From: a virus
Direction: 5' to 3' (one strand)
Length of the DNA stretch: 46,956 nucleotides
IMG/VR virus record: IMGVR_UViG_3300010375_000025
Location: 1 to 46,956 of that record
In this document: positions 5,299-46,908 of the stretch, piece by piece
How positions within the stretch are numbered: the stretch's first letter is position 1
Layout of the letters: every line of letters starts with the position of its first letter
Notes under the pieces: generated by a model
The model's database searches: none
The model's input: only the letters and a program-made list of their open reading frames with translations
What the model was told of the DNA's origin: nothing
Position numbers and translations under genes: made by a program

Positions 5299-7719
5299 CT
5301 AAAAGTCTACGAGGGAGCGATAAACACCCTCTTCCTGCACGGCGCCGCCAAGAGAGCTTGCATGGACCAAGTCGGGGTCCATCCAGGGGCGCGCGCTATT
5401 GGAAGCCGCATAAGCGGCACCGAAATTGGCTGGAGATCCGAAATAAAACTGCAGATCAAGATAGGCGCATTCTGGCGAGGAGTTGATAACATATTCACGA
5501 ACCGCTTGAGCATAGGCCGGGATCAAGGGCGTAACGGTCGTGCGATTATTCTCCTGCGGCATTATGATTTCAATGTCGCAATAAGGCAGAACAGATCGGA
5601 TGTTTGTCACGATCGTCGCGATATCCGCTGCGAACTGCGTCGAGGTGCGGCCTATCGTCTCATCATTGGTGCCGAGTGTGATCGAGACGAAATGCGGAGC
5701 GAAAGCCCCCAAGTAGGAAGCCCACGTCGCCTGCGTCACACTCGCCCATTGCTGAGCAGTCGAGCCACCTGAGGCTACCTTATGAAGACGAACGCCATCG
5801 GCCGTCGATTGCATATCCACGCCACAAATCGCCACGCTCCCAGAAATGACTTTCAGCCTGGCGAATCCAGCTGTGGCGGGCGGCGCAGCAAGGGCGATGG
5901 TCGAGCCTGCGGCTATGCTTAGCGCGATATTTGCTGACCATGTTGCGCCGTCATCCCACGACACTTGCACAACGCCAGAACCATCACTGGCGCCATAGTG
6001 TAGGATTGCAGAGGTGTGGCCGGTGGTGAAGTTCCAGCGGAAATAATCCCCAGGCGTGCTCGACGTTGCGACGCACAGCTCAGGGGTCGAAAGCTGGGTG
6101 ACGTGATAATTGCACGACCAAGTCCCGAACGCGCCGACATAGGTCACCAGATCGGCGCGGGCGGTCCAATTCGGGCTTGGTAGCGATCCGCTCCATGGAC
6201 CGGAGGACGTGCTATTGAACGCAAAGCTAATCCAGCCCAGCCCGGCCATCCCGAACTGTGTCTGAAGGCGCTTTGCGAGCCGATTGGTGAGGAGAAGCTG
6301 TTTCTGGATATAGCTATCCCCCAGCATAACCATCACAAATTGCGTGCTTTCGCCAAGTGCGCACTGCCCTAGGCGCAGTCGCGTATCGCGCAGTCTCCAA
6401 ATTCTCGAAGTTGGACCAACCGGATCACCGCCAGGAGTCAGGCCATTATTAAGGCGGATTGCAGCATTGGGCTGAGAACCGGCCATGCTTGCAAGCAAGG
6501 TGTCAGCGCTGCTGGAACCCGTATCAATTTCGGCAAGCACATGACCTCCGCTTTCGAGCAAGAGGGTGGCTAGATAGGGATCGGTCGTTTCATAGAAACC
6601 AGCAACCGGAATGGTTGATACATCGAGTGATGCTGCATCCAGCACCTCGCTGAGAACCCTTCCACCACTATCTAGAAGCCACCAAACACTAGCTGTATCG
6701 GTAGTTTCGTAAAGTATCGGAGCAAAAGTCTTTGCAGTGTCAGACCAGAAGTGGGCGCCTCTATCGCCTGGATTTCCGCCAGGTACATCAGTGTCCGTGT
6801 CGTCATTAGCGTAGTGGCCGGCCAGGATCGCACTCGCGGCTGCGGCATCGGCGAAGGGCTTCGCCAGAGCCGCATCGGTCGGGTAGAGGTAATGCGCTCC
6901 GGTCCCGCTGACACCCGTGGCCCACACATGGATACCAGTGTTTGGCACCGTTGCCCCGTTCGTTGGGTCGGTATGGGTGCCAGTGTCAGTAACGGGAATC
7001 TGGAAAACCTGACCCTCAAGAGGATTGCGAAACTGCCTCCAATAAGCGTCAGAAACAGCAGGCAGCGCGGGCGGAGCGTGGCCCGCCCCGGCCACAGCAT
7101 TGATGTATATCCACATCACGCCCTGATCGACGAGCGTCAGGCCCTTCGAGTAGGTCGCACCAGAATTATAAGCTGAAGTCGCAGCGACGTAATCCGCCCA
7201 CGTATCATAGGGGAGATAGGCAACGCCGTTCGAACTTTGCAGCGCGCCAATCTCGTTCTCAGTGATCGCAACGCGGTTGGTCAGGGCGTCACCGGCTGCT
7301 TGGGAAAAGCCAACGGCATCGGAGACGATCAGAGCGCCAGCGTTGTCAAAGGCCGCATACTTGTTTGCCCGATCGGCCGCCGCCGGGAGGGTGGCAACGG
7401 TTTCGCCGGCTGGGACCTTGATTGAGCGCGCAATGCCGTCTTCCTGCTGCGCGTCGTCATAGATCTCGTAGCCGTCGATCCATTTCGTGTCTTCGCCCGG
7501 ATTGTCCTGCTTCAGGCTGTAGGTGCCGCTGTTGGCGTAGAATTCCCAATAGCCCTTGGCATCCGTGAAGAGGCCTTCCGTGATCTGGGTCGGAGGGTTG
7601 GCGTTGTCGGAATAGATGATCACCGGGGTGACATGATCGGCCTGATAAAGGCTAACCTGCGCTCCCTGGATCGGCCTACCAGTTGCTGTCGCGGCGATGC
7701 TGCCAAAGCTCTTGCGCAT
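5299..7719 (-). CDS. Tailspike with SGNH/GDSL hydrolase domain (806 aa)
   Basis: N terminus (about 1-110) is a beta-rich virion-attachment domain. Two internal repeats of the form YETTD...LL-SGG-VL-E lie at about 337-362 and 376-398. The C-terminal third is an SGNH/GDSL hydrolase: VMLGDSY (Ser about 469), ASGGS (about 650-654, block II Gly), LGTND (about 682-686, block III Asn) and DPDLVH near the end (Asp about 783, His about 786, block V). Phage enzymes of this family often deacetylate surface polysaccharides, so a capsule or LPS deacetylase is likely (inference). The ATG overlies the end of the fibre gene; an upstream in-frame start is less likely. Less GC-rich than its neighbours. Confidence 0.8.
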   Translation of the reverse strand: MRKSFGSIAATATGRPIQGAQVSLYQADHVTPVIIYSDNANPPTQITEGLFTDAKGYWEFYANSGTYSLKQDNPGEDTKWIDGYEIYDDAQQEDGIARSIKVPAGETVATLPAAADRANKYAAFDNAGALIVSDAVGFSQAAGDALTNRVAITENEIGALQSSNGVAYLPYDTWADYVAATSAYNSGATYSKGLTLVDQGVMWIYINAVAGAGHAPPALPAVSDAYWRQFRNPLEGQVFQIPVTDTGTHTDPTNGATVPNTGIHVWATGVSGTGAHYLYPTDAALAKPFADAAAASAILAGHYANDDTDTDVPGGNPGDRGAHFWSDTAKTFAPILYETTDTASVWWLLDSGGRVLSEVLDAASLDVSTIPVAGFYETTDPYLATLLLESGGHVLAEIDTGSSSADTLLASMAGSQPNAAIRLNNGLTPGGDPVGPTSRIWRLRDTRLRLGQCALGESTQFVMVMLGDSYIQKQLLLTNRLAKRLQTQFGMAGLGWISFAFNSTSSGPWSGSLPSPNWTARADLVTYVGAFGTWSCNYHVTQLSTPELCVATSSTPGDYFRWNFTTGHTSAILHYGASDGSGVVQVSWDDGATWSANIALSIAAGSTIALAAPPATAGFARLKVISGSVAICGVDMQSTADGVRLHKVASGGSTAQQWASVTQATWASYLGAFAPHFVSITLGTNDETIGRTSTQFAADIATIVTNIRSVLPYCDIEIIMPQENNRTTVTPLIPAYAQAVREYVINSSPECAYLDLQFYFGSPANFGAAYAASNSARPWMDPDLVHASSLGGAVQEEGVYRSLVDF

Positions 7720-7721
7720 GG

Positions 7722-8360
7722 TCAGACCCCCACCGCGATCCACCAGCAGGAGACGGCGCCGTCCACTGCATTGAATATCTCGAAGCCTGTCGGGCTGGTG
7801 CCGGAAACCCCCGGGTTATTGTCTTGCGCGCTGGTGCTGAGCGCCGCGCCGCTGACTTGAGCCACCGAGAAATTCGAGAAAGTAGAGGGATATGTGACGG
7901 GCGTCGTGCCGTTGCCGGAAGCCGAGACCGTACCCCACTGAATGCCGAACACCTGGCCGGTCGGGAGCTTGAACTTGATGTAGCCGGGCACCGCGAGGCT
8001 CATGGAATCGACGCCGATCGCGCCGATCGTAGTGCGCGCCGTGGCGGCATCAGCATCGTCGAGCAGGGTACGGGCAAAGGCCGTCAGGACTGCTTCCTGG
8101 AACGTCTGCGGCGCGGTGCTGTAGAGCAGCCTGTCAGCGACGGTTCCAAGCTGCGCGATCGAGGCCAGCGTTCCCGTGACGCCGCCGAGAGAGCCATTAG
8201 CAAGGCCTGCATCCAGCGCCGGATTGATCGCAGAGCGCAGGTCGGACATGATCGTCCGCATGCCATTGTTGACGTTCCCGGCAGGGCATCCCTCGCCGAT
8301 GAACGTCGTCTCTACGAACTGATTGGCGTCCGGATCAGTGGACCATTGGCTGAAACCCAT
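7722..8360 (-). CDS. Tail fibre protein with gp53-like C-terminal domain
   Basis: 212 aa. An N-terminal adaptor-like part (GNVNNGMRTIMSDLRSAIN) is followed by Ala-rich linker helices with a DADAATARTTIG segment common in tail fibres. Residues about 125-212 match the gp53-like fibre tip pattern: GYIKFKLPTGQVFGIQWG, a strand with YPSTFSN, and a closing WWIAVG. Probably the trimeric fibre that links the tail to host receptors. Translation may be controlled by the leader hairpin just upstream, and a putative promoter precedes it. Confidence 0.75.
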   Translation of the reverse strand: MGFSQWSTDPDANQFVETTFIGEGCPAGNVNNGMRTIMSDLRSAINPALDAGLANGSLGGVTGTLASIAQLGTVADRLLYSTAPQTFQEAVLTAFARTLLDDADAATARTTIGAIGVDSMSLAVPGYIKFKLPTGQVFGIQWGTVSASGNGTTPVTYPSTFSNFSVAQVSGAALSTSAQDNNPGVSGTSPTGFEIFNAVDGAVSCWWIAVGV

Positions 8361-8414
8361 GCGCAGCGTTCCTGATGAGTGGAAACGGCTGCGCGCATGG
8401 AGCGTGCTGGGCTC
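8361..8414 (-). promoter_or_regulatory. Conserved 5' leader hairpin of the tail fibre gene
   Basis: On the minus strand this leader begins GAGCCCAGC and runs to the fibre ATG. It shares most of its bases with the leader at 13884-13932. The segment complementary to 8381-8392 (GCAGCCGTTTCC) can pair with that complementary to 8363-8372 (GGAACGCTGC) with two bulges, burying the GGAA Shine-Dalgarno. In the second copy the stem has an A-U pair where this one has G-C, a compensatory change that favours a real RNA structure. Confidence 0.5.
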
Positions 8415-8420
8415 AGGAGG

Positions 8421-8449
8421 GTTTTAGACTATTGCCGCGCGGTTGAAAA
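8421..8449 (-). promoter_or_regulatory. Putative sigma70-type promoter for tail genes
   Basis: Minus strand: -35 TTTTCA (8444-8449), 17-bp spacer, -10 TAAAAC (8421-8426). Each box matches consensus at about 4 of 6. It stands in the same position relative to the GAGCCC leader start as the better promoter at 13940-13968 (6 versus 7 nt), which raises confidence. Confidence 0.45.
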
Positions 8450-8478
8450 GGGGCGGTCGCTGGCGTACAGGAGGGAAC

Positions 8479-8916
8479 ATGAGATGGGGGATCATTGCAC
8501 TCGCAGCGTTTGGATTGGCGTCCTCAGCAGCCGCGAGAACGCATTTTGAATCCTACGAGGGGCGAGACTCTGTCGTAGAGGGGAGAGGTGGCACCCGAAC
8601 GACTACGGACGGAATCGATTTCTGGACGATGGGTGATCCACCTCGCCGCTATCAAGTTATTGGCGTCATCACAGACAAACGGGGCACCGGACTTCTTTCA
8701 AAGTCAGCCGTGAACGCATCAAACGTCGCAAAAGCAGTTCGCGATGCAGGCGGGGATGCGGCAATCATTCTAAGCTCTGATCGTCAGCGTATTGGGTACG
8801 TTGGTGGTGGGCAACTTCGGACAGAGGCAAATCAGGCATTTGCCAATGTGTGGGCCGCCCCGGTCGATAGAGCGATTACAAAGCTCATCGTTGTTAAATA
8901 TCTTACGCCTCAGTGA
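8479..8916 (+). CDS. Exported protein of unknown role (moron gene)
   Basis: 145 aa from the ATG preceded by AGGAGGG; a TTG 12 codons upstream is less likely. Residues 1-18 form a signal peptide (MRWGIIALAAFGLASSAAA), so the mature protein should be periplasmic. The core (about 55-140) alternates strand, helix and strand: YQVIGVITDKR, AVNASNVAKAVRDAGGDAAI, then KLIVVKYL. The family was not recognised. It reads against the surrounding virion operon, has its own strong ribosome-binding site and is less GC-rich, as expected for a lysogenic-conversion (moron) gene. Superinfection exclusion or envelope change is possible but unproved. Confidence 0.7.
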   Translation: MRWGIIALAAFGLASSAAARTHFESYEGRDSVVEGRGGTRTTTDGIDFWTMGDPPRRYQVIGVITDKRGTGLLSKSAVNASNVAKAVRDAGGDAAIILSSDRQRIGYVGGGQLRTEANQAFANVWAAPVDRAITKLIVVKYLTPQ

Positions 8917-9170
8917 CCAACTGGACCCAGATATTCGTCGCCTGCGTCGGCTTTGGTGCTGGCGGAGAAGCCGTGCGACAATACCGCGCGGCCAAGGTCC
9001 GGCGACGCAGCATGACCGCCCTGGAGCGCAATGCCGGGTTCTGGACCGATCGGCGGTTTCTGGCGGCCGAGATAGCGGTATTTGGGGCGGTGGCGTTGTT
9101 CGTGATTGCGATGCTCGATACCACGCTTGTTATGATGGGCATCCTACCGCTCTCAGCGCTGCCATTTTAA
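8913..9170 (+). CDS. Small membrane protein, second moron gene (85 aa)
   Basis: GTG start overlaps the stop of the exported protein (GTGA), so the two form an operon. A weak apolar N-terminal segment (about 5-17), a basic middle (RQYRAAKVRRRS) and a strong hydrophobic stretch (about 47-75, LAAEIAVFGAVALFVIAML) suggest an inner-membrane protein. Its TAA overlaps the TAA of the convergent ejection-protein gene. No family recognised; a membrane partner for the exported protein is an inference. Confidence 0.6.
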   Translation: MTNWTQIFVACVGFGAGGEAVRQYRAAKVRRRSMTALERNAGFWTDRRFLAAEIAVFGAVALFVIAMLDTTLVMMGILPLSALPF

Positions 9171-11809
9171 TACCCCGGCGCCGTGTACATGAGCGCCAAG
9201 GGACGCCCGAACATTCCGCCCAAGCGCTGATAGCGGCCCACCGTGTTGCCCAGATTCACTGCAGCGTCAGGCCGATCAAGCAACAAGCGCGCGATCGCCG
9301 GCTGCGTCAGGTCGCTATAGAGCGGAGCATTAACGGTATTACGGACAAGTGCCCGTGCCGCCGCGCGAAGACCACCTTCCTGCTCCAAGCGCCCCGCCGT
9401 TCCGCTATCGGGAATGCGGGAGGGTAGAACCTGCTGTCCAGCCCGAGAAAGTTCGAAAAATGGCTGGTCGGTCGTTCCCTGCGTGCCACCGAACCGCCTA
9501 GCATTGGCTGCAGCTGCGTCCGATAGCTGGGACGGCATGACTAGGCCGGTCTCACCCGAGCGAGATCCGTTGCGCGCCCTGTTCACAGCATCTTTCACAA
9601 CCTCGACGTTGCGATTGAGGGCATTGGCAGCGTTGAGGTCTCCGACCACGCCCGGCGCTTGGCGATCCAGCAGCCCAGATAACGCGCCTTCAGCCTGTCG
9701 AGTGACGTTCCCAAAGTCCCATCCATAGGGCTGCGATTCGAGGGAAGAGGCGTCGCGCCTCAAACCTCGAAGGGCCTGCTGGTAATCATGCCCCGTGAGA
9801 TTGCCTTGGGGGTCGAACGAATTTCCAACCCGCGTTGGCAGCGTGTAGGCGGCATTCCCACGCATGGGCTCAGGAAGCGCTTGGCCCGCTGCAATGGCCT
9901 GCCGCATGTCGCCGACAAACGGTTGGTCGGCGGTCACATTCACGCCATCCAGTGCAGCGTTGTAAGCCTGTCCACGGGCATTACGGAGAATGTTCACACC
10001 CTCTTCGCCGATCACACCGTTGGTGGATGTTGGCCCCGCGTACTGGCTTATATTGGCAGCTGGGGCCAGCGCCTGATCGCTCATCGCGCGGTTGAACCCC
10101 TGAAGGCTTCCAATGCGCTGATCGTTGATCGCATCGCCAATGCCGCTGAAACCAGCAAGGCGATCCTCACGTCTGGCAAGTCGCGCACCAAGTCGCCCGC
10201 TTTGGCTGACCATCTGCCCGGCCGTCATCGGTACGCCCTGCGCCCGGAGATACTGGACCGCATCATTGCGGACACCGGTCAACGCGTTACCGGCGCCCGC
10301 GACAAGGCGCCTGCCGAACATGCCGCCGGCTGTACCGATCGCCGCACCCTTGAGGGTATCGTTAAGCGAGCCATCGCCAGAGAGGTAGCCATTCGTGCCG
10401 CCATAGATCGCATCAGCAGCGATCGGCGCCGCGCGACCCAGACCAGCCGCAGCGCCTAGACCCTCAAGACCTGCGCCAGCCAGAGCGCCGCCCGCGAGCG
10501 TGCCCGCGAAAGCGGATTTCGGATTGGCCTGCCCAAGTGCGGTGATACCAGCTTGAGCGAGGGCGGGGTTGCTCTGAAATTTCGGGATAGCTCCGGCGGT
10601 TACAGCATTCGCGCCGGTAATGATGCCCGTGCCCACAGGGGACTGAGCCGCAGCGTTGATCGTGCTACGTAACGGCGACAGCGGCACCTGCCGGTTCTCA
10701 ACCGAGATGGTGTACTGGTCGATCGGCACATTAGGATGCTGCGCTCGAAATGCCGTTGCAGCCGCGAGGTCAGATGCGCGCGCATCGCCGAGCCCAGGCC
10801 GGATGGTGTTCATGTAAGCGACGATATCGCCCGTGTGCGCACCGGCCTGGATCATGCCACGGATGTGAGCATTCACGCCCTGAAGCGCAGGGTCAGCTTC
10901 GATCTGATATCCGCTATTGGACAGCTGCAACGGTGTGCCAGGCGTTGGGGAACCCGGAGAAGGCGGAGTGCCGCCATTGCCCCCAGGGCCGCCGCCTGCT
11001 CCGCCAGCAGGAGGCAAGGGCGGCGGCGAACCCGGAAGGACAGGCGAAACCGGCGGCACTGAAGGGTTCTGCTGCCCTTGTGTGCCGGGAAGATCGACCA
11101 TGATGCCATATTTCTTCGCAACGTTCGGGTCGCGAGGATCCTCATTATTCAGGAGCGCTTTCGCATTCCGATAATGCAAATCGACCTGCGCAAGATTGCG
11201 GAGCAGCGAGTCACGGTCTTGGGTCTGCTGAAGCGCGGCAACGGACGCGGCGAGCCTATCAGCCTCCGTCTCGGTGAGGCTTCCGTAGCCCGAAGCGCCA
11301 TTCGCCGATGATGCTTTCAGGGCGCTGATCGTGTCGTTGATGATGCTGCCCTTCACACCACTTAGTGTGGCAGCAAGATTGGACGAATTTTGGCCAAGAA
11401 GCGGCACATACTGGAAAGCCGAACTTCCGAAGACATTGCCGGTATCATAGCCTTGATTGACCTGATCGCGTGCCGTCTGGATGTTGCCCAGCACGTTGTC
11501 AGTCTGAAGATCGCGCGCAATCTTCGCTGACATGGGGTCGGGCGCCTGAGCCTGCTCAGATTGTGCCTTCCTGATCTCCAGTGCAGCCTTCTGGTTGGCC
11601 AACTCCTGAGCGGTAAGCTCGCCAGGAGCCTTTTGGACATCAAGTCGGTTCTGCGTAGCCGAGCGGACGGCATTGGCGCTCGCACTCAATGTCTCGGCAT
11701 TGGTGTGCTGAACATCAGCAGCCGCCTGCGGACCCTTATACTGGAAATCAGGCGCGGGGCCGGAGACGGCGCCATTATCGAACTGATCGAAGGGATTAGC
11801 CTGCGCCAT
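9167..11809 (-). CDS. Large internal virion/DNA ejection protein (880 aa)
   Basis: Largest virion protein, in the podovirus ejection-protein position (last of three before the tail fibre). Residues about 40-230 are helical and Gln/Ala-rich; about 245-295 is a Pro/Gly linker (PGSPPPLPPAGGAGGGPGG); about 385-480 is Ala/Gly-rich with weakly hydrophobic glycine-zipper-like stretches that could enter membranes; the rest is helical. This fits a protein that leaves the capsid with the DNA and helps form the channel across the host envelope. No lytic transglycosylase motif was seen. Confidence 0.65.
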   Translation of the reverse strand: MAQANPFDQFDNGAVSGPAPDFQYKGPQAAADVQHTNAETLSASANAVRSATQNRLDVQKAPGELTAQELANQKAALEIRKAQSEQAQAPDPMSAKIARDLQTDNVLGNIQTARDQVNQGYDTGNVFGSSAFQYVPLLGQNSSNLAATLSGVKGSIINDTISALKASSANGASGYGSLTETEADRLAASVAALQQTQDRDSLLRNLAQVDLHYRNAKALLNNEDPRDPNVAKKYGIMVDLPGTQGQQNPSVPPVSPVLPGSPPPLPPAGGAGGGPGGNGGTPPSPGSPTPGTPLQLSNSGYQIEADPALQGVNAHIRGMIQAGAHTGDIVAYMNTIRPGLGDARASDLAAATAFRAQHPNVPIDQYTISVENRQVPLSPLRSTINAAAQSPVGTGIITGANAVTAGAIPKFQSNPALAQAGITALGQANPKSAFAGTLAGGALAGAGLEGLGAAAGLGRAAPIAADAIYGGTNGYLSGDGSLNDTLKGAAIGTAGGMFGRRLVAGAGNALTGVRNDAVQYLRAQGVPMTAGQMVSQSGRLGARLARREDRLAGFSGIGDAINDQRIGSLQGFNRAMSDQALAPAANISQYAGPTSTNGVIGEEGVNILRNARGQAYNAALDGVNVTADQPFVGDMRQAIAAGQALPEPMRGNAAYTLPTRVGNSFDPQGNLTGHDYQQALRGLRRDASSLESQPYGWDFGNVTRQAEGALSGLLDRQAPGVVGDLNAANALNRNVEVVKDAVNRARNGSRSGETGLVMPSQLSDAAAANARRFGGTQGTTDQPFFELSRAGQQVLPSRIPDSGTAGRLEQEGGLRAAARALVRNTVNAPLYSDLTQPAIARLLLDRPDAAVNLGNTVGRYQRLGGMFGRPLALMYTAPGY

Positions 11810-12598
11810 TTACTGCCCCAGAACCTGCGCGGATGCGCCCGGCCCATATTTCTGATCGAACTGCGCACGAAGGCTTGGATTGGCCCTCAGATAGGATACC
11901 GCAGCGGGCGGAGGACCAGACGAAGCCATGCCGCCCTTCGGCACGAACCGAGCCATCCCGGTTGCGGGGTCAGTCACCAGCTGCGTGGGATTGGCCTCCG
12001 CCCGCACGTAGCTGCTCGCTAGATTGGGATCGATACCCTTGATGAAGTTGTAGTTCTTCTCGATCGACCCCGTTTCCTGCGGCTTGGCCTGCAGCAATGC
12101 CAGCTGGCGCTGATATTCGAGCGCGTTCTTGTAGGCATCAATCTGGGTCTGACGGCCGAATTGACGCTCCTGTGCATATTGCTGCAGCAACGGGGCGCCG
12201 GCCGGATTTCCGCCAGAGGCCATGAGGATGGCGCCAGCCTGTCCCAACTTCCCCGCGAGGCCACCCGGATCATTGAAGCCAGGCTTGGGCATCGGCACGT
12301 TGGGCATCGGCGCATTGATCGCTTGGGACAGATTGGGGGACAGGCCGAATTGCGCGGCAGGCGCGGCAGCAAGCCCCTGAGGCTGCGCAGGAGCCGCTGA
12401 AGCGATCGGAGGAGCGCTACCGCCGAAGGCCATACCGGCCGGCGCCTGCATTCTCGGGAGCGTCTGAGGCTGCAGCGGATTGCCCATCGGCGTCTGGTTG
12501 AAGCCGGCCGGATCAGGCGGAAGCCCATTGTTCGGGTTCCACATCGTGCCGTCAGTGAGCTTGATCATCCCATTGGGCTGGAGGCCGAATGCCGACAT
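11810..12598 (-). CDS. Ejection/internal virion protein (262 aa)
   Basis: Starts at the ATG overlapping the previous stop. The N-terminal half (about 1-110) is rich in Pro, Gly, Ala, Met and Gln; the middle (about 140-180, QERQFGRQTQIDAYKNALEY) is helical; the C terminus is a short helical domain with SLRAQFDQKYGPGASAQ. This low-complexity head plus helical middle is typical of internal virion proteins in P22- and BPP-1-type phages. It precedes the 880-aa ejection protein with one base between stop and start. Confidence 0.55.
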   Translation of the reverse strand: MSAFGLQPNGMIKLTDGTMWNPNNGLPPDPAGFNQTPMGNPLQPQTLPRMQAPAGMAFGGSAPPIASAAPAQPQGLAAAPAAQFGLSPNLSQAINAPMPNVPMPKPGFNDPGGLAGKLGQAGAILMASGGNPAGAPLLQQYAQERQFGRQTQIDAYKNALEYQRQLALLQAKPQETGSIEKNYNFIKGIDPNLASSYVRAEANPTQLVTDPATGMARFVPKGGMASSGPPPAAVSYLRANPSLRAQFDQKYGPGASAQVLGQ

Positions 12599-13446
12599 CA
12601 AAGCCTCCCGTAATTAACAGTGGCGACGCCCATGACCTCGGGGCCAAGCGCCCATGGCCGGATCTGCGCGACCTCATCGGCCATGACACCCGTGCGGACA
12701 GGACCGCCAGCCTTGTAGCGATATTGGTAGAGGCCCAGTCCATCCTCTGCTTCACCGATCTTCACGATATCGGTCTTGAGGCGACGATCCGAGAATAGCG
12801 ACGCGAGTGACAAGGCTGTTCCAAGCCCGCTTTGGATGGAACTCGCAGTGCTCGGCGTCTGCGTCGTGCTGGTCTTGTTGCCCCACAGACCCCCAAGGGT
12901 GTCAGCATATTGGTTCGCCACAGTGCCGGGAAGTTCGGCAGTGCCGGTGAGATAGGACAACAGAGACCCGATGCCTTGATTCTGCGCCCCTGCGACCGTT
13001 GCCGCATTCCCTGCGGCGGTGTTCATGTTGTTCCGCTCGTTGGTGTAATCAGTGTAGCGGAGATTGGTCTCGTTCTTCGCCAACTCGCGCGCCAGAAGCT
13101 GAGCCTGTGCGGAACCGCCCGTCAGTCCGCGGGTGCCGATGCCAGTGTTCACGCCATTCGTGACATCCTGGTTGGTCGCGTCGATCTGTTGCTGGAGATA
13201 GGGGTTTCCAGTCAGGTACTTGCCCCCCAAAACGTCCTGATCGTAGCTGTTCGCCGCCGCCAAGGTCGGATTGTTGAGCGTCTGGCCCAGAACGGTCGGG
13301 ATGTTCTGGTTCAGGATGCCGGTGATGTTCGAGACATTGCCGGCGTTGGAGTTATAAGCCCCTGTGGCCGCGTTCGAGCCCGCCTGAAGGTATGGCAACG
13401 CCTGCTTTGAGACGTTCGTGGTCGAGGTTGCTCCCTTTTTCGACAT
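12598..13446 (-). CDS. Virion protein with peptidase S74-like C terminus (282 aa)
   Basis: Residues about 1-200 are Asn/Gln/Ala/Gly-rich and largely helical, like ejection proteins. Residues about 215-282 match the intramolecular chaperone (endosialidase tail, peptidase S74) pattern: SDRRLKTDIVKIG, LGLYQYRY, then GVMADEVAQIRPWAL and a closing VNYGRL. In tail spikes this domain aids trimer folding and cuts itself off using a Ser-Lys pair; the start SDRRLKTDI retains both. Its use on a protein encoded among ejection genes is notable. The gene overlaps both neighbours, consistent with one operon. Confidence 0.7.
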   Translation of the reverse strand: MSKKGATSTTNVSKQALPYLQAGSNAATGAYNSNAGNVSNITGILNQNIPTVLGQTLNNPTLAAANSYDQDVLGGKYLTGNPYLQQQIDATNQDVTNGVNTGIGTRGLTGGSAQAQLLARELAKNETNLRYTDYTNERNNMNTAAGNAATVAGAQNQGIGSLLSYLTGTAELPGTVANQYADTLGGLWGNKTSTTQTPSTASSIQSGLGTALSLASLFSDRRLKTDIVKIGEAEDGLGLYQYRYKAGGPVRTGVMADEVAQIRPWALGPEVMGVATVNYGRL

Positions 13447-13883
13447 CAGGCCGCCCTCAGGTCCATTTCGAAGCCGATCACGGGTGTGGTCCAGCCCTCG
13501 CGCTCAAGAATTCGCTTCCAGCCAGGCCGACCCCATGCCCGGAGGCCCACGCAGCCCGATTTTAGCGACCATTCCGCCAGCATCGACGACAAGCGCGGCA
13601 CCCAAAGCTGATAATCGCGCCCTGCGATCAGGAAGACCTCGGTCACGGGGCCTTCCTTCCCCTCGATGGTCCTGAGAACCATCGCCGCGTAGAGATCACC
13701 TCCCTTCAGGACTGCGCCGAGATCAGCCTTTCCTTCGAAAAGCTGGGCTTCGACGGCATCCCACGTCTCGTCCGAGAGATCGAGCGCAGGCGAGAGCAAC
13801 GCACGCGCCTCAGGCCAGCGATCCCAAGCCAAGGGATGCGGGATGAGGCCAATGTCGAGATCGGAAGCGTCCAGCGCGGGCAT
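13446..13883 (-). CDS. GNAT-like protein of the tail/ejection module (145 aa)
   Basis: Mixed alpha/beta: LYAAMVLRTIEGKEGPVTEV then VFLIAG, a helix LSSMLAEWSLKSGC and a closing GRPGWKRILEREGW. That last element (strand, G.., helix, EREGW) is like the end of N-acetyltransferase folds, where a protein describes its own substrate-binding turn. Acetyl-CoA contacts are not obvious, so it may be a structural relative only. A promoter and leader hairpin lie immediately upstream, making it first of the ejection-gene transcript. Confidence 0.5.
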   Translation of the reverse strand: MPALDASDLDIGLIPHPLAWDRWPEARALLSPALDLSDETWDAVEAQLFEGKADLGAVLKGGDLYAAMVLRTIEGKEGPVTEVFLIAGRDYQLWVPRLSSMLAEWSLKSGCVGLRAWGRPGWKRILEREGWTTPVIGFEMDLRAA

Positions 13884-13932
13884 GCCATTCCTCGATTAGT
13901 GGAAATGGCTGCGGCAAATGCGCGCTGGGCTC
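13884..13932 (-). promoter_or_regulatory. Conserved 5' leader hairpin of the ejection operon
   Basis: Minus-strand leader starting GAGCCCAGC and ending at the ATG of the GNAT-like gene. GCCATTTCC (complement of 13901-13909) can pair with GGAATGGC (complement of 13884-13891) with one bulged U, enclosing the GAGGAA ribosome-binding site. Closely matches the leader at 8361-8414, with a G-C to A-U exchange in the stem that keeps the pairing. Confidence 0.55.
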
Positions 13933-13939
13933 GAACGGC

Positions 13940-13968
13940 ACTATATCAGCAAGAATGAGGCCTGCCAA
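13940..13968 (-). promoter_or_regulatory. Sigma70-type promoter for ejection and tail genes
   Basis: Minus strand: -35 TTGGCA (13963-13968), exactly 17 bp, -10 TATAGT (13940-13945); five of six bases match consensus in each. It sits in an 85-bp gap of an otherwise tightly packed operon. The conserved leader begins 7 nt after the -10 box, near the expected transcription start. Confidence 0.65.
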
Positions 13969-14319
13969 CTAGGTGACGCGGACCTGCACGATGCTGCCAT
14001 TGCGATACAATCCGCCCACGGCCACGCCCCCAGTCGCCGCTGCAGCATCGTCGGCGTAGTTGGTCAGTGTGGCAAAGGATGCCTGAAAGGCCTCCAGCGC
14101 GGTTGCGCGGTCCTGAAGCGCCGTGATTTCACCATCGACCGCATCAGCGCGGCCCTCAAGGGCGGTAAGCCGTGTCTCCGCATCCGTCTCTCGCAAATCG
14201 AGATCGGTGATCTTGCTTTCCGCCGTCCCGAGGCGACTGATCAGATCATTGACCGCATTGGCGCACTTGCGGATCCAGTCCGGCATGCCTGTCGCGGTCA
14301 CAGGAACGCGCAGCGCCAT
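13969..14319 (-). CDS. Small coiled-coil virion protein (116 aa)
   Basis: Starts at the ATG overlapping the stop of the nozzle gene (TAATG). Residues about 15-95 carry heptad-like repeats (LGTAESKITDLDLRETDAET, later ALEGRADAVDGEITALQ), a clear coiled coil, followed by a short beta end (GGLYRNGSIVQVRV). A trimeric minor tail or fibre-anchor protein is plausible from the combination of coiled coil and beta tip. A longer upstream frame is not needed. Confidence 0.6.
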   Translation of the reverse strand: MALRVPVTATGMPDWIRKCANAVNDLISRLGTAESKITDLDLRETDAETRLTALEGRADAVDGEITALQDRATALEAFQASFATLTNYADDAAAATGGVAVGGLYRNGSIVQVRVT

Positions 14320-15746
14320 TAGCGGGAACCTCCCGGAACTCCGGTATGCTCGACACCCTGTACATAGGTCCAGGTCGCGCCAGCGGCATAGTCGAACGTG
14401 GTCCGCACATATCGACCCTCCGCCCGAACCGGGAAATCGCCTGACCCATTCAAACTGGAATAGCTTGACGTGGAGGGGCTTCCTCCAAGCATCTGGCGGC
14501 ATTCCAGCGTGAGCGTGAGATTGCGGTTTACGTCGCTGATCGGTCGCACGAACCTCAGCCGCGTGCGCCGGCCGGCGATCAACTCCTGATACGGCGTCAC
14601 GAAGCGAGCCGCCATGTTGGCCCCGCTGAGCGTCCCGATGCTGTTTTCCATGCTCACGACAAGGAATAGGGGATCACCGCCAGCGAACCGCGCGTCGTCG
14701 AGAGAGTAGGGGATGCTATCGAGCCCGGAGGGATACAGCGTGTCCAGTTGCTCCAGCGATATCGCCGTCGTGAAGCCCGACAGGATACCCTTCGCGGGGA
14801 TCGAGATGATCGACCATTGGTCCAGCTGCCAGTTGTAGACCCATATCCGACCCGTCGCTCCAGGCACCAGCCACGCGACGGTTGTCCGCTTCGGATCGAT
14901 CGCGGCATAGATCTGATCCAGCTGCTGACGGCTGTAGGTCTTGAAGAAAGTCGCATCGACCCGCTCGTTGCCGATCGGTGTCACGTCGTTGCCGTCGCAG
15001 AACATGAAGCCGCGATCGGACAGGAAATAGGTACGCCGGCCGGAATTGGTGATCGAGCCCTTCGAGACTGCACCCACATTCGGCGCGATCTCGTCGAACT
15101 GCCACACCAAGGGCACATCATCCGTCGTGTCCGCGGTGTAGGTCATGCGAACGACGCGGTTGCGCTGGATGATCAAGCCATATTCGCCGCCGATGATGCC
15201 CTGGACATCACCACCGGTCAGCATGGGCTGGAAACCAGCCTGATCCACGCCGGGCGTATTGCCATTCTGGTCATTGAAAGCAGACCATTGGACCATCGCC
15301 GCATTCCCGGCTGCACCGCCATAGACGACGAAATCGCGGACGGTCGCTACCGACGTGCCGGAGGGAGCGCCGACAAGAGGCGCGGCAGTGCCCGCAAGCA
15401 AGTCTACCTGCTGCGTTGGGCCGCCGTTGACGCAGATCACATAATCGCCGAACTGCGTGAACTGCCAGCGCGAACTGGTGGCCAGTCCGGTTTCGAGCGC
15501 GCCCCATGCGCCGCCGCTATACTTGTACAGCGCCGTCAGGGTGCCAGCGATCAGCGTCCCGGCTTCCGTCGAGGCCACGAATGCCGCTCCGCCATAGAAA
15601 TCATCATCGAGGCTGCTGGTGACGCTCGCGAACTGTCCGACCGGGCGAAAGCCATTTGCACCGGGATAGGCGTTCGCCATGTCCGTCAGACCAGATTGCA
15701 GGAATGGCGCCTTGTCGGGCTCATAGGGGCCGAACAGCGTCTGCAT
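14319..15746 (-). CDS. Tail nozzle / DNA stabilisation protein (475 aa)
   Basis: A beta-propeller-like pattern of repeated short strands with aromatic turns (GDYVICVNGG, VRDFVVYGG, RTYFLSDRGFMF, GRIWVYNWQLDQWS) spans about residues 50-340, as in P22 gp10-type nozzle and packaged-DNA stabilisation proteins of short-tailed phages. It sits directly after the adaptor gene, the standard order portal, adaptor, nozzle. Role: forms the tube below the connector and plugs the packaged DNA. No enzyme motif seen. Confidence 0.7.
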   Translation of the reverse strand: MQTLFGPYEPDKAPFLQSGLTDMANAYPGANGFRPVGQFASVTSSLDDDFYGGAAFVASTEAGTLIAGTLTALYKYSGGAWGALETGLATSSRWQFTQFGDYVICVNGGPTQQVDLLAGTAAPLVGAPSGTSVATVRDFVVYGGAAGNAAMVQWSAFNDQNGNTPGVDQAGFQPMLTGGDVQGIIGGEYGLIIQRNRVVRMTYTADTTDDVPLVWQFDEIAPNVGAVSKGSITNSGRRTYFLSDRGFMFCDGNDVTPIGNERVDATFFKTYSRQQLDQIYAAIDPKRTTVAWLVPGATGRIWVYNWQLDQWSIISIPAKGILSGFTTAISLEQLDTLYPSGLDSIPYSLDDARFAGGDPLFLVVSMENSIGTLSGANMAARFVTPYQELIAGRRTRLRFVRPISDVNRNLTLTLECRQMLGGSPSTSSYSSLNGSGDFPVRAEGRYVRTTFDYAAGATWTYVQGVEHTGVPGGSR

Positions 15747-17626: not shown

Positions 17627-18070
17627 TCAGAGGATGCTGTTGGTCTGCTGGCCGTCCACGATGCCGGCAGTGATCTGACCCAGCGTGGGGGCAGTGCCGG
17701 CGACCGTGTAGAGCAGGCGGTGATAGCGACGGTTGGCCTCGATCGGCACGCTGTCCGGAAGAAGATACCGCGCGCCGCTCGCCATGTCGGCCAACGCGTA
17801 GGCCGGCGAGGTGAAGACCGTCGTCTTGTTGGTGCTGAACGCCGCGTCGTCCGCCACCTCATAGGTGATGGTCAGCGAAGTGAGGTTGTTGAAGCTCTGC
17901 ACGACGCGGATCGCGAGCGGCAGGGGGATGCCCTTGCCGAGATCGCGACGCAGCGCCGCAGCAGCGCCATAGACGGTTCCCGTGGCGCCGGTATCGAGCA
18001 CGTTGGTCGAAGCCGCCGTGCCGGTGATCGCCTGAGCGCTGGAGAACAGTTCGGTACGATCGAAAATCAT
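17627..18070 (-). CDS. Capsid cement protein, Bbp16 family
   Basis: 147 aa. The start (MIFDRTELFSSAQAITGTAA) and the middle (LPLAIRVVQSFNNLTSLTITYE) fit the Bbp16 family named from Bordetella phage BPP-1, in which trimers bind on the capsid surface and stabilise it. It comes right after the major capsid gene, as in BPP-1. An AAGGGAGA ribosome-binding site lies upstream. This is the best marker linking the virion to the BPP-1-type podoviruses. Confidence 0.75.
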   Translation of the reverse strand: MIFDRTELFSSAQAITGTAASTNVLDTGATGTVYGAAAALRRDLGKGIPLPLAIRVVQSFNNLTSLTITYEVADDAAFSTNKTTVFTSPAYALADMASGARYLLPDSVPIEANRRYHRLLYTVAGTAPTLGQITAGIVDGQQTNSIL

Positions 18071-19157: not shown

Positions 19158-20105
19158 CTAGTTGCGCGGCATATCGTTCGGGTAGAGGGCACGGATCGGA
19201 TCAGACGGGGGCTGTTGGCCACTCGGCGAGCCGGGACGTGCCGCAGGAGGCGTCTGTTTCGCTGCGCGGACGGGGACCATCTTCTGCTTCATCAGCTGGT
19301 CGAGCTTGGCGGCTTTCGCCTTCCATTCCGATGCTGTCTTGAGAGCGATGATGTCAGCCGCTCGGGCTTGTGACATAGCCTCTGCCGAGTATCCGAGTTC
19401 TGCCGCGATGGGCTGCAGGGTATCTAGCAGCTTCGCGCGCTCCGATGGGTCGGACCATTCGGGCACTTTTTCGGTGAGCAGCGTGATTTCCTGCTGGATG
19501 GCAAGCTGCTGCTCATGCTGCTCCAGTTGTTCCGCCTGTTGAGCGGCCTGAGCAGCCTCCTGCTGCGCTTGCGTGCGCTGGGCAGTGGCGTGACGATACG
19601 CCGCTTCCTGCTGGAAGTAAAGATCACGGTGAGACGGATCACCACTGTTCAGTAGCCGCAGATCAGGCTGCTGGACTTCGAACTGCGAAGCATATTGCTG
19701 AAGCTGCTGCGCGTGGTTGCGGCTGATCTGCAACAGCACCTGGCGGGCCTCGGATTCAACCGTCTGTCGGGTCTGCGCCGCCTCGCGCGACTTGGTCTGC
19801 AGGAACGTCTCCCGCTCCGTCTCGCGCTTGGAGATGATCTCCTGCATATCGCGCGGCAGGGCGGCGAACTGCTCCTTGTAATCCTTCGACCATGAGCCCG
19901 GCGCCTCGATCGGCGTCAGGTCTTCCTGGGCATCGGCTCCTTCTTCGGCCTGTCCTTCGGCTCCCGGCGCCGCTTCTTCGGCCGGCTTGTCATCGGCGTA
20001 GAAGTCGGTTGCGCTGATATCGTTCTCGGCTTGCGGCTGCTGGGCCGGGTTCGGGTCGGCCGGTGCGGCAGTTGCATCAGTGATCGTCTCGGGTGCGGTT
20101 GCCAT
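19158..20105 (-). CDS. Capsid scaffold protein (315 aa)
   Basis: Acidic, disordered N terminus (about 1-75, Glu/Ala-rich), then a long Gln-rich helical region (about 80-270, with AYRHATAQRTQAQQEAAQAA) and a basic, Pro-rich C terminus (about 270-315). Acidic start, coiled-coil centre and basic end is the standard scaffold plan, the basic end usually contacting coat protein. It lies immediately upstream of the capsid gene. No protease domain seen. Confidence 0.75.
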   Translation of the reverse strand: MATAPETITDATAAPADPNPAQQPQAENDISATDFYADDKPAEEAAPGAEGQAEEGADAQEDLTPIEAPGSWSKDYKEQFAALPRDMQEIISKRETERETFLQTKSREAAQTRQTVESEARQVLLQISRNHAQQLQQYASQFEVQQPDLRLLNSGDPSHRDLYFQQEAAYRHATAQRTQAQQEAAQAAQQAEQLEQHEQQLAIQQEITLLTEKVPEWSDPSERAKLLDTLQPIAAELGYSAEAMSQARAADIIALKTASEWKAKAAKLDQLMKQKMVPVRAAKQTPPAARPGSPSGQQPPSDPIRALYPNDMPRN

Positions 20106-45438: not shown

Positions 45439-45749
45439 TGGGGAGCCTGCCCGAACTTGACCGGCGCCTGTCGCGAAAGATCGAACAGGGGAAGGCGATC
45501 CAGCTTTCGCCGGACGACCTGGATATGCTTGTCGGCACGGGCGCGATCGACACATTCCGTCGCGCCGTCCAAGATTTTCAGAGGAAACAATGCCAGCATC
45601 GAAGCGCCCGAAGCCGCTCTATCAGCGGGGACCTTATGCCCTCTACCAGCGGGAAGGGCGCAACCTTGAAATCGTCTGGTACGACGCCGAGCGAAAGCGC
45701 GAGCGAAGTGCTAGCGCAGGTACAGGGGATGTTGCGACGGCAAAGCTAG
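45438..45749 (+). CDS. Small integrase-linked protein overlapping int (103 aa)
   Basis: Starts MGSLPELDRRLSRKIEQGKA. Residues about 20-55 (IQLSPDDLDMLVGTGAIDTF, RRAVQDFQRKQC) are helical and resemble short proteins often encoded right before prophage integrases. The frame runs on for 160 bp into the integrase gene; the C-terminal tail (ISGDLMPSTSGKGATLKSSG) is of low complexity and may be of little use. A role in directing integration or excision is only a possibility. Confidence 0.55.
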   Translation: MGSLPELDRRLSRKIEQGKAIQLSPDDLDMLVGTGAIDTFRRAVQDFQRKQCQHRSARSRSISGDLMPSTSGKGATLKSSGTTPSESASEVLAQVQGMLRRQS

Positions 45750-46816
45750 CCCTCGATCGAAAATATCTTGCGGATGGCGGCCACGGGCTCTGTCCGACGT
45801 GCCATCGCCCGATTGATGAAGGCTCTCCGCTCGTCACCCGAGCCGTGCTGGATTATCTGCTGAGCAAGGAAGGCTCAGCCGGCTACAAGGCTACCTCAAC
45901 CCGGCTGACCCACGCCATCACGTTCATCGCCGAGACGAACCCGGCGCTCACGTGCGCTCTGGCCGATGAGGCATGGGCCAAGCGATACCGCGAATGGCTG
46001 GCGAAGCGCCCGGTGCTCAACTCGGCTGGCGAAAAGATCGGCACCTATTCGATCGGCCACATCGAGGGTTGCATCCGTCAGCTCGCGGCTGCGGTCAATG
46101 CGGCGCCGGGTCAAGAAGCGAAGTTCAAGGCCGAACAGCCCCGCGTCGTCAGCAAGAGCCCCGTGTTCCGTGCCAGCGTGGCCGACCTCGCCAACATGTT
46201 CAACTATTGCCTGCGCCCCAATGGCCGCACGGAGAAGATCCGGGCGACGCAGATGGCCGAGCGCGCGAACCTGCTGCGCTACCTTCGCATGGCCGTGGCG
46301 ACATGGGCGCGGCCGGATGCGATCTTCGAGGTGACGGCGAAGCAATGGCACGCCCATGCCGGCGTGCTGGACCTGAACCCTCCCGGCCGGCGCCAGACGA
46401 AGAAGCATCGGCCTCGCGTGCCGATCGCCAAACAGTTCGCACCGCTGCTCACCAGCGGCGACGCCTATCTCCCGATCGCCGTCCTCAACTCGCCGTGGGT
46501 CAAGATGCGGACCCATCTGCATCTGCCGGGTGGGCGCGAGGCAGGTCCGAAGCTGATCCGCCGCAGCATGGCGACACTGGCCCGCAAGCGCATCGGCGAG
46601 GCCAATTGGCGACAGGGCGAAATGATGCTGGGGCATGTGAAGGCGTCCGTCAGCGATATCTATGCACTGCCCGATCCGGCGAATCTCGGGCTGGTCTTGA
46701 CAGCGACCGAATCGATTATCGATGAGATCGAGGCCATGGCTCCCGGCGCCTTTTGCCGCACGGTTACCGCAACTGGTGTCCAGCTTTCAGTTGTCAGCGG
46801 AGGGAAAAATGGCTAA
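45590..46816 (+). CDS. int: Tyrosine-family integrase (408 aa)
   Basis: Tyrosine recombinase with Arg241 (ATWARPDAIFEV), Lys321-x-x-Arg324 in GPKLIRRSMATLARK (Lys where most have His), His349 (EMMLGHVKAS) and nucleophile Tyr358 (VSDIYALPDP). N-terminal arm-binding and core-binding regions cover about 1-200; a Cys pair (GLCPTCHRPIDEG, about 66-78) is an unusual addition. Located 17 bp from attR, it should recombine attP with the 3' end of tRNA-Gly. ATG start with AGGAAA upstream. Confidence 0.92.
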   Translation: MPASKRPKPLYQRGPYALYQREGRNLEIVWYDAERKRERSASAGTGDVATAKLALDRKYLADGGHGLCPTCHRPIDEGSPLVTRAVLDYLLSKEGSAGYKATSTRLTHAITFIAETNPALTCALADEAWAKRYREWLAKRPVLNSAGEKIGTYSIGHIEGCIRQLAAAVNAAPGQEAKFKAEQPRVVSKSPVFRASVADLANMFNYCLRPNGRTEKIRATQMAERANLLRYLRMAVATWARPDAIFEVTAKQWHAHAGVLDLNPPGRRQTKKHRPRVPIAKQFAPLLTSGDAYLPIAVLNSPWVKMRTHLHLPGGREAGPKLIRRSMATLARKRIGEANWRQGEMMLGHVKASVSDIYALPDPANLGLVLTATESIIDEIEAMAPGAFCRTVTATGVQLSVVSGGKNG

Positions 46817-46833: not shown

Positions 46834-46880
46834 ATGGAGCGGATGAAGGGAATCGAACCCTCGTCGTAAGCTTGGGAAGC
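46834..46880. repeat. attR: attR, core within tRNA-Gly
   Basis: The second 47-bp copy of the att repeat, identical to 77-123. It covers the 3' part of the tRNA gene from anticodon stem to CCA, so the phage DNA restores an intact tRNA at this junction. The tRNA 5' part beyond 46880 is host DNA. Confidence 0.93.
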
Positions 46881-46908
46881 TTCTGCTCTACCATTGAGCT
46901 ACACCCGC
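46835..46908 (-). tRNA. tRNA-Gly (anticodon CCC)
   Basis: A full cloverleaf on the minus strand: 7-bp acceptor stem (GCGGGTG with CATCCGC, one G-T pair), D stem GCTC/GAGC, anticodon loop TTCCCAA giving anticodon CCC, T arm with GGTTCGATTCC, discriminator T and encoded CCA. The first anticodon-stem pair is G-A, tolerable. Reads GGG codons. It is the phage integration target and remains functional. Confidence 0.93.

Follow-up and report, generated by a model that had tools for sequence, protein, structure and literature searches.

What do two separate structural gene groups of one prophage gain from beginning with the same short RNA? The question arises at two minus-strand loci of the virus record IMGVR_UViG_3300010375_000025 (IMG/VR), a prophage-like stretch of 46,956 bases from a Sphingomonas prophage that was analysed at its full length and is here called the window. 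One locus lies before an operon headed by a gene for a GNAT-fold protein (copy or leader A), and the other before a tail-fibre gene (copy or leader B). Both carry what is very probably a structured, covarying 5' leader, belonging to a 5'-terminal three-way-junction family for which we cautiously favour a function in the control of translation of phage structural operons.

A first-pass annotation of this DNA had claimed two promoter-leader cassettes, with a good first promoter and a weaker second one, and both were located, ahead of the ATGs at 13883 and 8360 (minus strand). The sigma-70 scan reports promoter A as TTGGCA-17-TATAGT, with 10 of 12 consensus matches and a TG preceding the -10 box, and does not report promoter B, whose best -10-like hexamer is AATAGT or TCTAAAA at about 8433-8423. 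In copy A, 7 nt after TATAGT are followed by GAGCCCAGC (13932-13924), a sequence that copy B carries at 8414-8406. These are its only exact matches in the window, where with one mismatch allowed it is not unusual (19 found against 23.6 expected). The window has exactly two occurrences of the shared 20-mer CGCAGCCRTTTCCACTMATC, where shuffles lead one to expect 0.01, and no further copies were detected there with up to three mismatches. The stem that had been proposed pairs GCCATT(T)CC with GGAATGGC in copy A and CGTT(T)CC with GGAACG in copy B; the double change by which an A-U pair in copy A is exchanged for a G-C pair in copy B is correct as described, and the Shine-Dalgarno (SD) sequence, claimed to lie in the stem, overlaps the 3' arm in both copies. 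What had been overlooked is the larger three-way junction, of which this stem forms one arm.

The first-pass annotation had also suggested a covariance search for more copies, and the same leader was indeed found in related phages, before the same two genes. Using the nozzle-type protein as query, 22 viral loci and 4 genome loci were collected, then more Sphingomonas-group prophages and the viral record L061; records near the window, with about 54-65% identity in this protein, share the leader. Altogether, about ten related phages and prophages of the Sphingomonas group supply 19 distinct copies, each phage contributing one or two (window A and B; L005; L006; L007; L009 a and b; L012 a and b; L025; L027 a and b; L028 a and b; L058 a and b; L061 a and b; L138). 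The suffix a marks a copy ahead of the GNAT gene and b one ahead of a fibre gene, and nearly all 19 stand before these two genes. When eight phage records were scanned with the two-block pattern, 12 sites fell at leaders and one elsewhere, the reversed pattern giving 3. Prophages of the G120 group (putatively Zymomonas-like) lack the leader, and so do relatives in which the neighbour protein shows about 45% identity or less; in several of these relatives the GNAT-type gene follows the preceding gene without a gap or overlaps it.

Some observations on single copies stand apart. L138, a more distant phage, was found blind by a pattern scan, and its leader (GAGCCCAGC..GCAGCC with TATAA boxes, about 12130-12190, minus strand) precedes an adaptor-protein gene, not a GNAT or fibre gene. 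The fibre genes of L009b (17639-17708) and L058b (7147-7098) seem to start with TTG, not ATG.

The consensus fold is a three-way junction with the invariant core GCCCA-GC...GC-A-GCC. Its first helix, P1, is formed by the mRNA 5' sequence NGNGCCCA and bases that adjoin the AUG or come immediately after it; in L005 and L006 it reads GCGCCCA/UGGGCGC, UG being part of the AUG, and in some b copies it lies just upstream of the AUG (CGCGCC/GGCGCG in L028b, CGUGCC/GGCACG in L009b). P2 is a short hairpin, GCnn..nnGC, occurring in the variants UC/GA, AC/GU, GC/GC and CG/CG and followed by an invariant A, while P3 is a GCC-stem-GGC hairpin that holds the SD within its 3' arm. Unconstrained folding of single sequences yields the three-way junction in most copies, with z-scores of about -3 for many. 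In the alignment fitted with the covariance model R2, 86% of the cells are paired, compared with 27-52% in slid controls, and 27 cells are changed on both sides, compared with 8.7 +/- 3.3 after shuffling; this alignment is biased toward structure, and the seed of R2 (A5) was hand-made with loops trimmed or padded with N. A partner-swap test that uses no covariance model, in which each strand is offered its own partner or that of other copies, also favours the own partner for P1 (p=0.0004), P2 (p=0.0001) and P3 (p=0.0003). The base preceding GCCC may be C, U, A or G, and the complementary base is found in the 3' strand in most copies, compensating changes in P1 extending into codon 3 (GCG/ACG). 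Concerted evolution of the A and B copies within a phage was not significant (p=0.13).

The two copies of the window are the least typical of all 19, their fold being degenerate relative to the consensus. Leader A has a minimum free energy (MFE) of -29.7 kcal/mol (z -3.3) and scores 20.4 bits against R2, with E values of 0.14 in the locus search and 0.010 in the window alone. Its best fold retains P3, and P1 and P2 run together as a single long helix formed with codons 2-7, in which GAGC-CCAGCGCG is paired with CGCGCUGG-ac-GCUUC. In copy B, P1 and P3 are present and P2 is remodelled; its P1 duplex amounts to -10.7 kcal/mol, and its own 3' window ranks best of 19 for its 5' strand, and vice versa. 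In both copies the RNA 5' end pairs past the start codon and P3 holds the SD.

Regarding where these RNAs begin, the 19 leaders are enriched for a -10 box placed some 10 nt before GCCC (summed score 92.5 against 61.7 +/- 3.6 for shuffled sequences, 0/2000), so that the P1 strand is probably the start of the RNA. Opening the region from -16 to +6 of these leaders in their transcript context is predicted to cost 15.6 kcal/mol on average, against 11.8 kcal/mol at 219 other gene starts in these phages (p=1.5e-5), and the SD and/or the start codon lie in conserved base pairs, as they do in cis-regulatory leaders that occlude the ribosome-binding site. Moreover, the fibre gene of L005, L006 and L025 is without this leader and carries a different conserved one, found in only these three records of the viral contigs, in which an SD hairpin is enclosed by pairing between the 5' sequence GUCGGAGG and codons 3-7 (z -4.2, -2.5 and -2.7). 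The recurrence of this design at the fibre gene, in an unrelated sequence, speaks for a role at translation start. Control of translation is the best reading on account of the position of the leader, the pairing of P1 with early codons, and this second fibre leader.

Several features nonetheless weigh against it. The opening energies overlap those of ordinary genes, the 75th percentile of the controls being 14.5 kcal/mol, and the control gene starts were picked automatically. Occlusion is not identical among copies, P1 lying over the AUG in some and just upstream in others, and in L025 and L027 the AAA of the SD AAAGGA remains in the loop. Within the window, copy A departs from the junction by its P1/P2 fusion, its own P1 duplex, ranked 15 of 19, reaching no more than -6.3 kcal/mol, and R2 fails to pick up copy B at E<=1. 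Finally, kinship among the sequences inflates the shuffle statistics of the R2-fitted alignment.

Other functions could be served by a fold at this place. An element for mRNA stability, in which P1 seals the 5' end against decay that depends on it so that late mRNAs persist, the overlap with the ribosome-binding site being a by-product of the short leader, would agree with the first nucleotides of the inferred transcript being paired in most copies. It also counts in favour of such an element that bacteria are well known to protect mRNAs by stems at the 5' terminus. A hairpin alone would suffice for it, however, leaving the invariant junction nucleotides and the compensating changes in early codons unexplained, and we therefore consider it unlikely. 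Even simpler, an RNA thermometer or a plain fold acting without a partner would account for the sequestered SD but not for the invariant junction; the thermometer was rejected because the predicted unpaired probabilities of SD and AUG are nearly constant from 28 to 42 C, and explanations of this kind appear highly improbable.

Two further accounts place the function in transcription, and to each we give little credence. The leader might resemble the put antitermination RNAs of phage HK022, a class marked by binding to the RNA polymerase beta' zinc-binding domain and by suppression of termination, with two hairpins at two transcript starts making the polymerase resist pausing and termination over long late operons. 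Indeed, there are two copies per phage at transcript starts, each of about 60-70 nt with two main hairpins, P2 and P3 coming just after the inferred start, and HK022 putL and putR are likewise two copies of two hairpins, of about 70 nt and near the transcript start, putL lying just downstream of its promoter (PMC9378689). On the contrary, the element described here overlaps the ribosome-binding site and early codons on structural-gene transcripts, an overlap not described for putRNAs in PMC9378689; ribosomes would disrupt a P1 paired with early codons, and no terminator array was found downstream on the minus strand, the terminator scan being at chance level. Alternatively, GCCCAGC..GCAGCC could be a DNA signal of late promoters, either in the initially transcribed region or as an activator site, with the hairpins as a secondary matter. 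The fixed position just after the -10 box and the two invariant sequence blocks would fit such a signal, but P1, P2 and P3 all retain pairing through compensating changes, the spacing between the blocks varies, and P1 finds its partners beyond the AUG.

Control of translation by such a leader has relatives among known systems. In the initiation regions of the T4 genes e, soc, 49 and I-TevI, the 5' arm of a hairpin contains the late promoter, so that late transcripts escape the fold (PMC3014915). There, as here, a helix in phage mRNA covers the SD and/or the AUG near a late promoter, but the T4 hairpins are single stems instead of a three-way junction; besides, the -10 box, some 10 nt before GCCC, leaves the 5' strand of P1 within the inferred transcript, and a promoter just upstream of the fold should produce RNA that carries the whole of it, unlike in T4. 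A three-way junction at a translation start is also found in the uS15 operator of rpsO mRNA in B. stearothermophilus and T. thermophilus, where stabilisation by the protein has been proposed to block initiation (PMC10931766). The present leaders, by contrast, serve structural genes of phages, and their junction sequence GCCCA-GC..GC-A-GCC has no counterpart among the Rfam families. Phage T7 has separate promoters before gene 13 and the fibre gene 17. The layout of the window is like that of these promoters, named phi13 and phi17 (PMC3737178), in that separate promoters precede the place of gene 13 and the fibre gene, yet here they are host-type -10/-35 promoters joined to a conserved three-way-junction leader, not promoters for T7 RNA polymerase.

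No Rfam 15 family reaches its gathering threshold at the leader: the window gives only a tRNA, and the leader loci give nothing at the leader at E up to 5-10; the leader is a new RNA family absent from Rfam, the type of control proposed for it being already known. No description of it was found in the literature searched, mostly without subscription papers. Among 396 genomes of the order, R2 produced one real match, in a known prophage, and five others (E about 0.002-0.01), in coding-like sequence and without the invariant blocks, which have the look of chance matches. The same verdict was reached for an exact-pattern match in the viral contig L002, inside an opposite-strand open reading frame (ORF), and for R1 matches at window 19507-19587 and in a homologue in G009, which fall in the coding sequence of a scaffold-like repeat protein. 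Across about 150 stretches from three degenerate scans of viral contigs, only L138 had promoter and leader beyond the known copies and records.

As for the genes served, ejection and fibre genes had been claimed downstream, and a GNAT-led operon of ejection type and a fibre gene were identified (Table 1). The 145-aa protein is predicted by AlphaFold with a mean confidence (pLDDT) of 87.7 and matches GNAT structures of the PDB in Foldseek (E about 1e-6, probability 1.00), although as a query against the viral contigs it gave no matches. The three genes after it probably encode ejection proteins, as judged from their position. The structural proteins of the window are podovirus-like (terminase, portal, head protein, SU10-type adaptor and nozzle-type protein). 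Two minus-strand ORFs between the nozzle-type gene and leader A (13969-14502 and 14319-15746) overlap by ~180 nt. At the ends of the window there is an identical 47-bp direct repeat (77-123 and 46834-46880), probably attL and attR of the integrated prophage; its right copy overlaps a tRNA-Gly(CCC) gene (46835-46908, minus strand) and is adjoined by a 408-aa ORF (45590-46816, plus strand) without Pfam or PHROGs match.

Table 1. Positions of leaders, promoter and genes (window coordinates unless a record is named).
Feature	Position	Strand	Basis
Promoter A: TTGGCA (13968-13963), 17-nt spacer, TATAGT (13945-13940)	13940..13968	-	consensus scan
Leader A with first codons, folded 5' region of the GNAT/putative ejection operon mRNA	13863..13933	-	MFE, model R2
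Leader A, 5' strand GAGCCCAGCGCG, pairing with CGCGCTGG (13878-13871) and GCTTC (13868-13864) in early codons	13921..13932	-	MFE
Leader A, P3: GCCATTTCC (13909-13901) / GGAATGGC (13891-13884); SD GAGGA 13893-13889	13884..13909	-	sequence, MFE
Leader B, 5' region of the fibre-gene mRNA	8361..8416	-	fold z -1.8
Leader B, P1: CUGAGCCCA (8416-8408) / UGGGUUUCAG (8359-8350), begins within AUG	8350..8416	-	
Leader B, P3: GCGCAG(C)CGTTTCC / GGAACGCTGCGC; SD AGGA 8373-8370	8361..8394	-	sequence, MFE
GNAT-fold protein, 145 aa, first operon gene, in the place of T7 gene 13	13446..13883	-	AlphaFold + Foldseek
Rest of the leader A operon, three genes in the place of T7 genes 14-16	9167..13446	-	
Operon gene, virion structural	12598-13446	-	phrog_6121
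Operon gene	11810-12601	-	
Operon gene, 880 aa	9167-11809	-	
Fibre protein, 212 aa, Gp53-like C-terminus, first fibre gene	7722..8360	-	PF21882 1.2e-6; tail-fibre PHROGs
Large fibre protein, 814 aa, GDSL lipase domain	5299..7743	-	PF13472 2.5e-8; phrog_38670 7e-61
Second fibre leader GUCGGAGGCACG.CCUCACC...GGUGGUG	L005 18240-18400; L006 16530-16690; L025 20300-20470		

Under control of translation, transcription would start about 10 nt upstream of GCCC or nearer, as the -10 box indicates, and the first nucleotides of the RNA, NGNGCCCA, would pair beside or after the AUG to enclose P2 and the SD-bearing P3. In the closed leader the ribosome site would be costly to open, and both the GNAT/ejection operon and the fibre gene might be translated less or later. 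Since the invariant nucleotides sit at the junction (GCCCA-GC, GC-A-GCC), they suggest a binding partner, a protein or other factor that may recognise the junction and set the balance between open and closed states. With the mRNA 5' end folded back around the ribosome-binding site, the leader probably sets the timing or the amount of ejection and tail-fibre protein. More tentatively, and as a possibility we hold rather doubtful, a dedicated phage or host factor would read the junction core and co-ordinate at least two structural operons post-transcriptionally, as a late RNA regulon whose switch is the 5' end lying on early codons, an architecture built twice at the fibre gene with unrelated sequence.

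Most known RNA leaders that control structural genes of phages come from T4 and RNA phages. The leader described here offers clear compensatory mutations for testing and, if the reading is true, it would constitute a compact system for how a group of temperate podoviruses sets the amounts of its ejection and fibre proteins.

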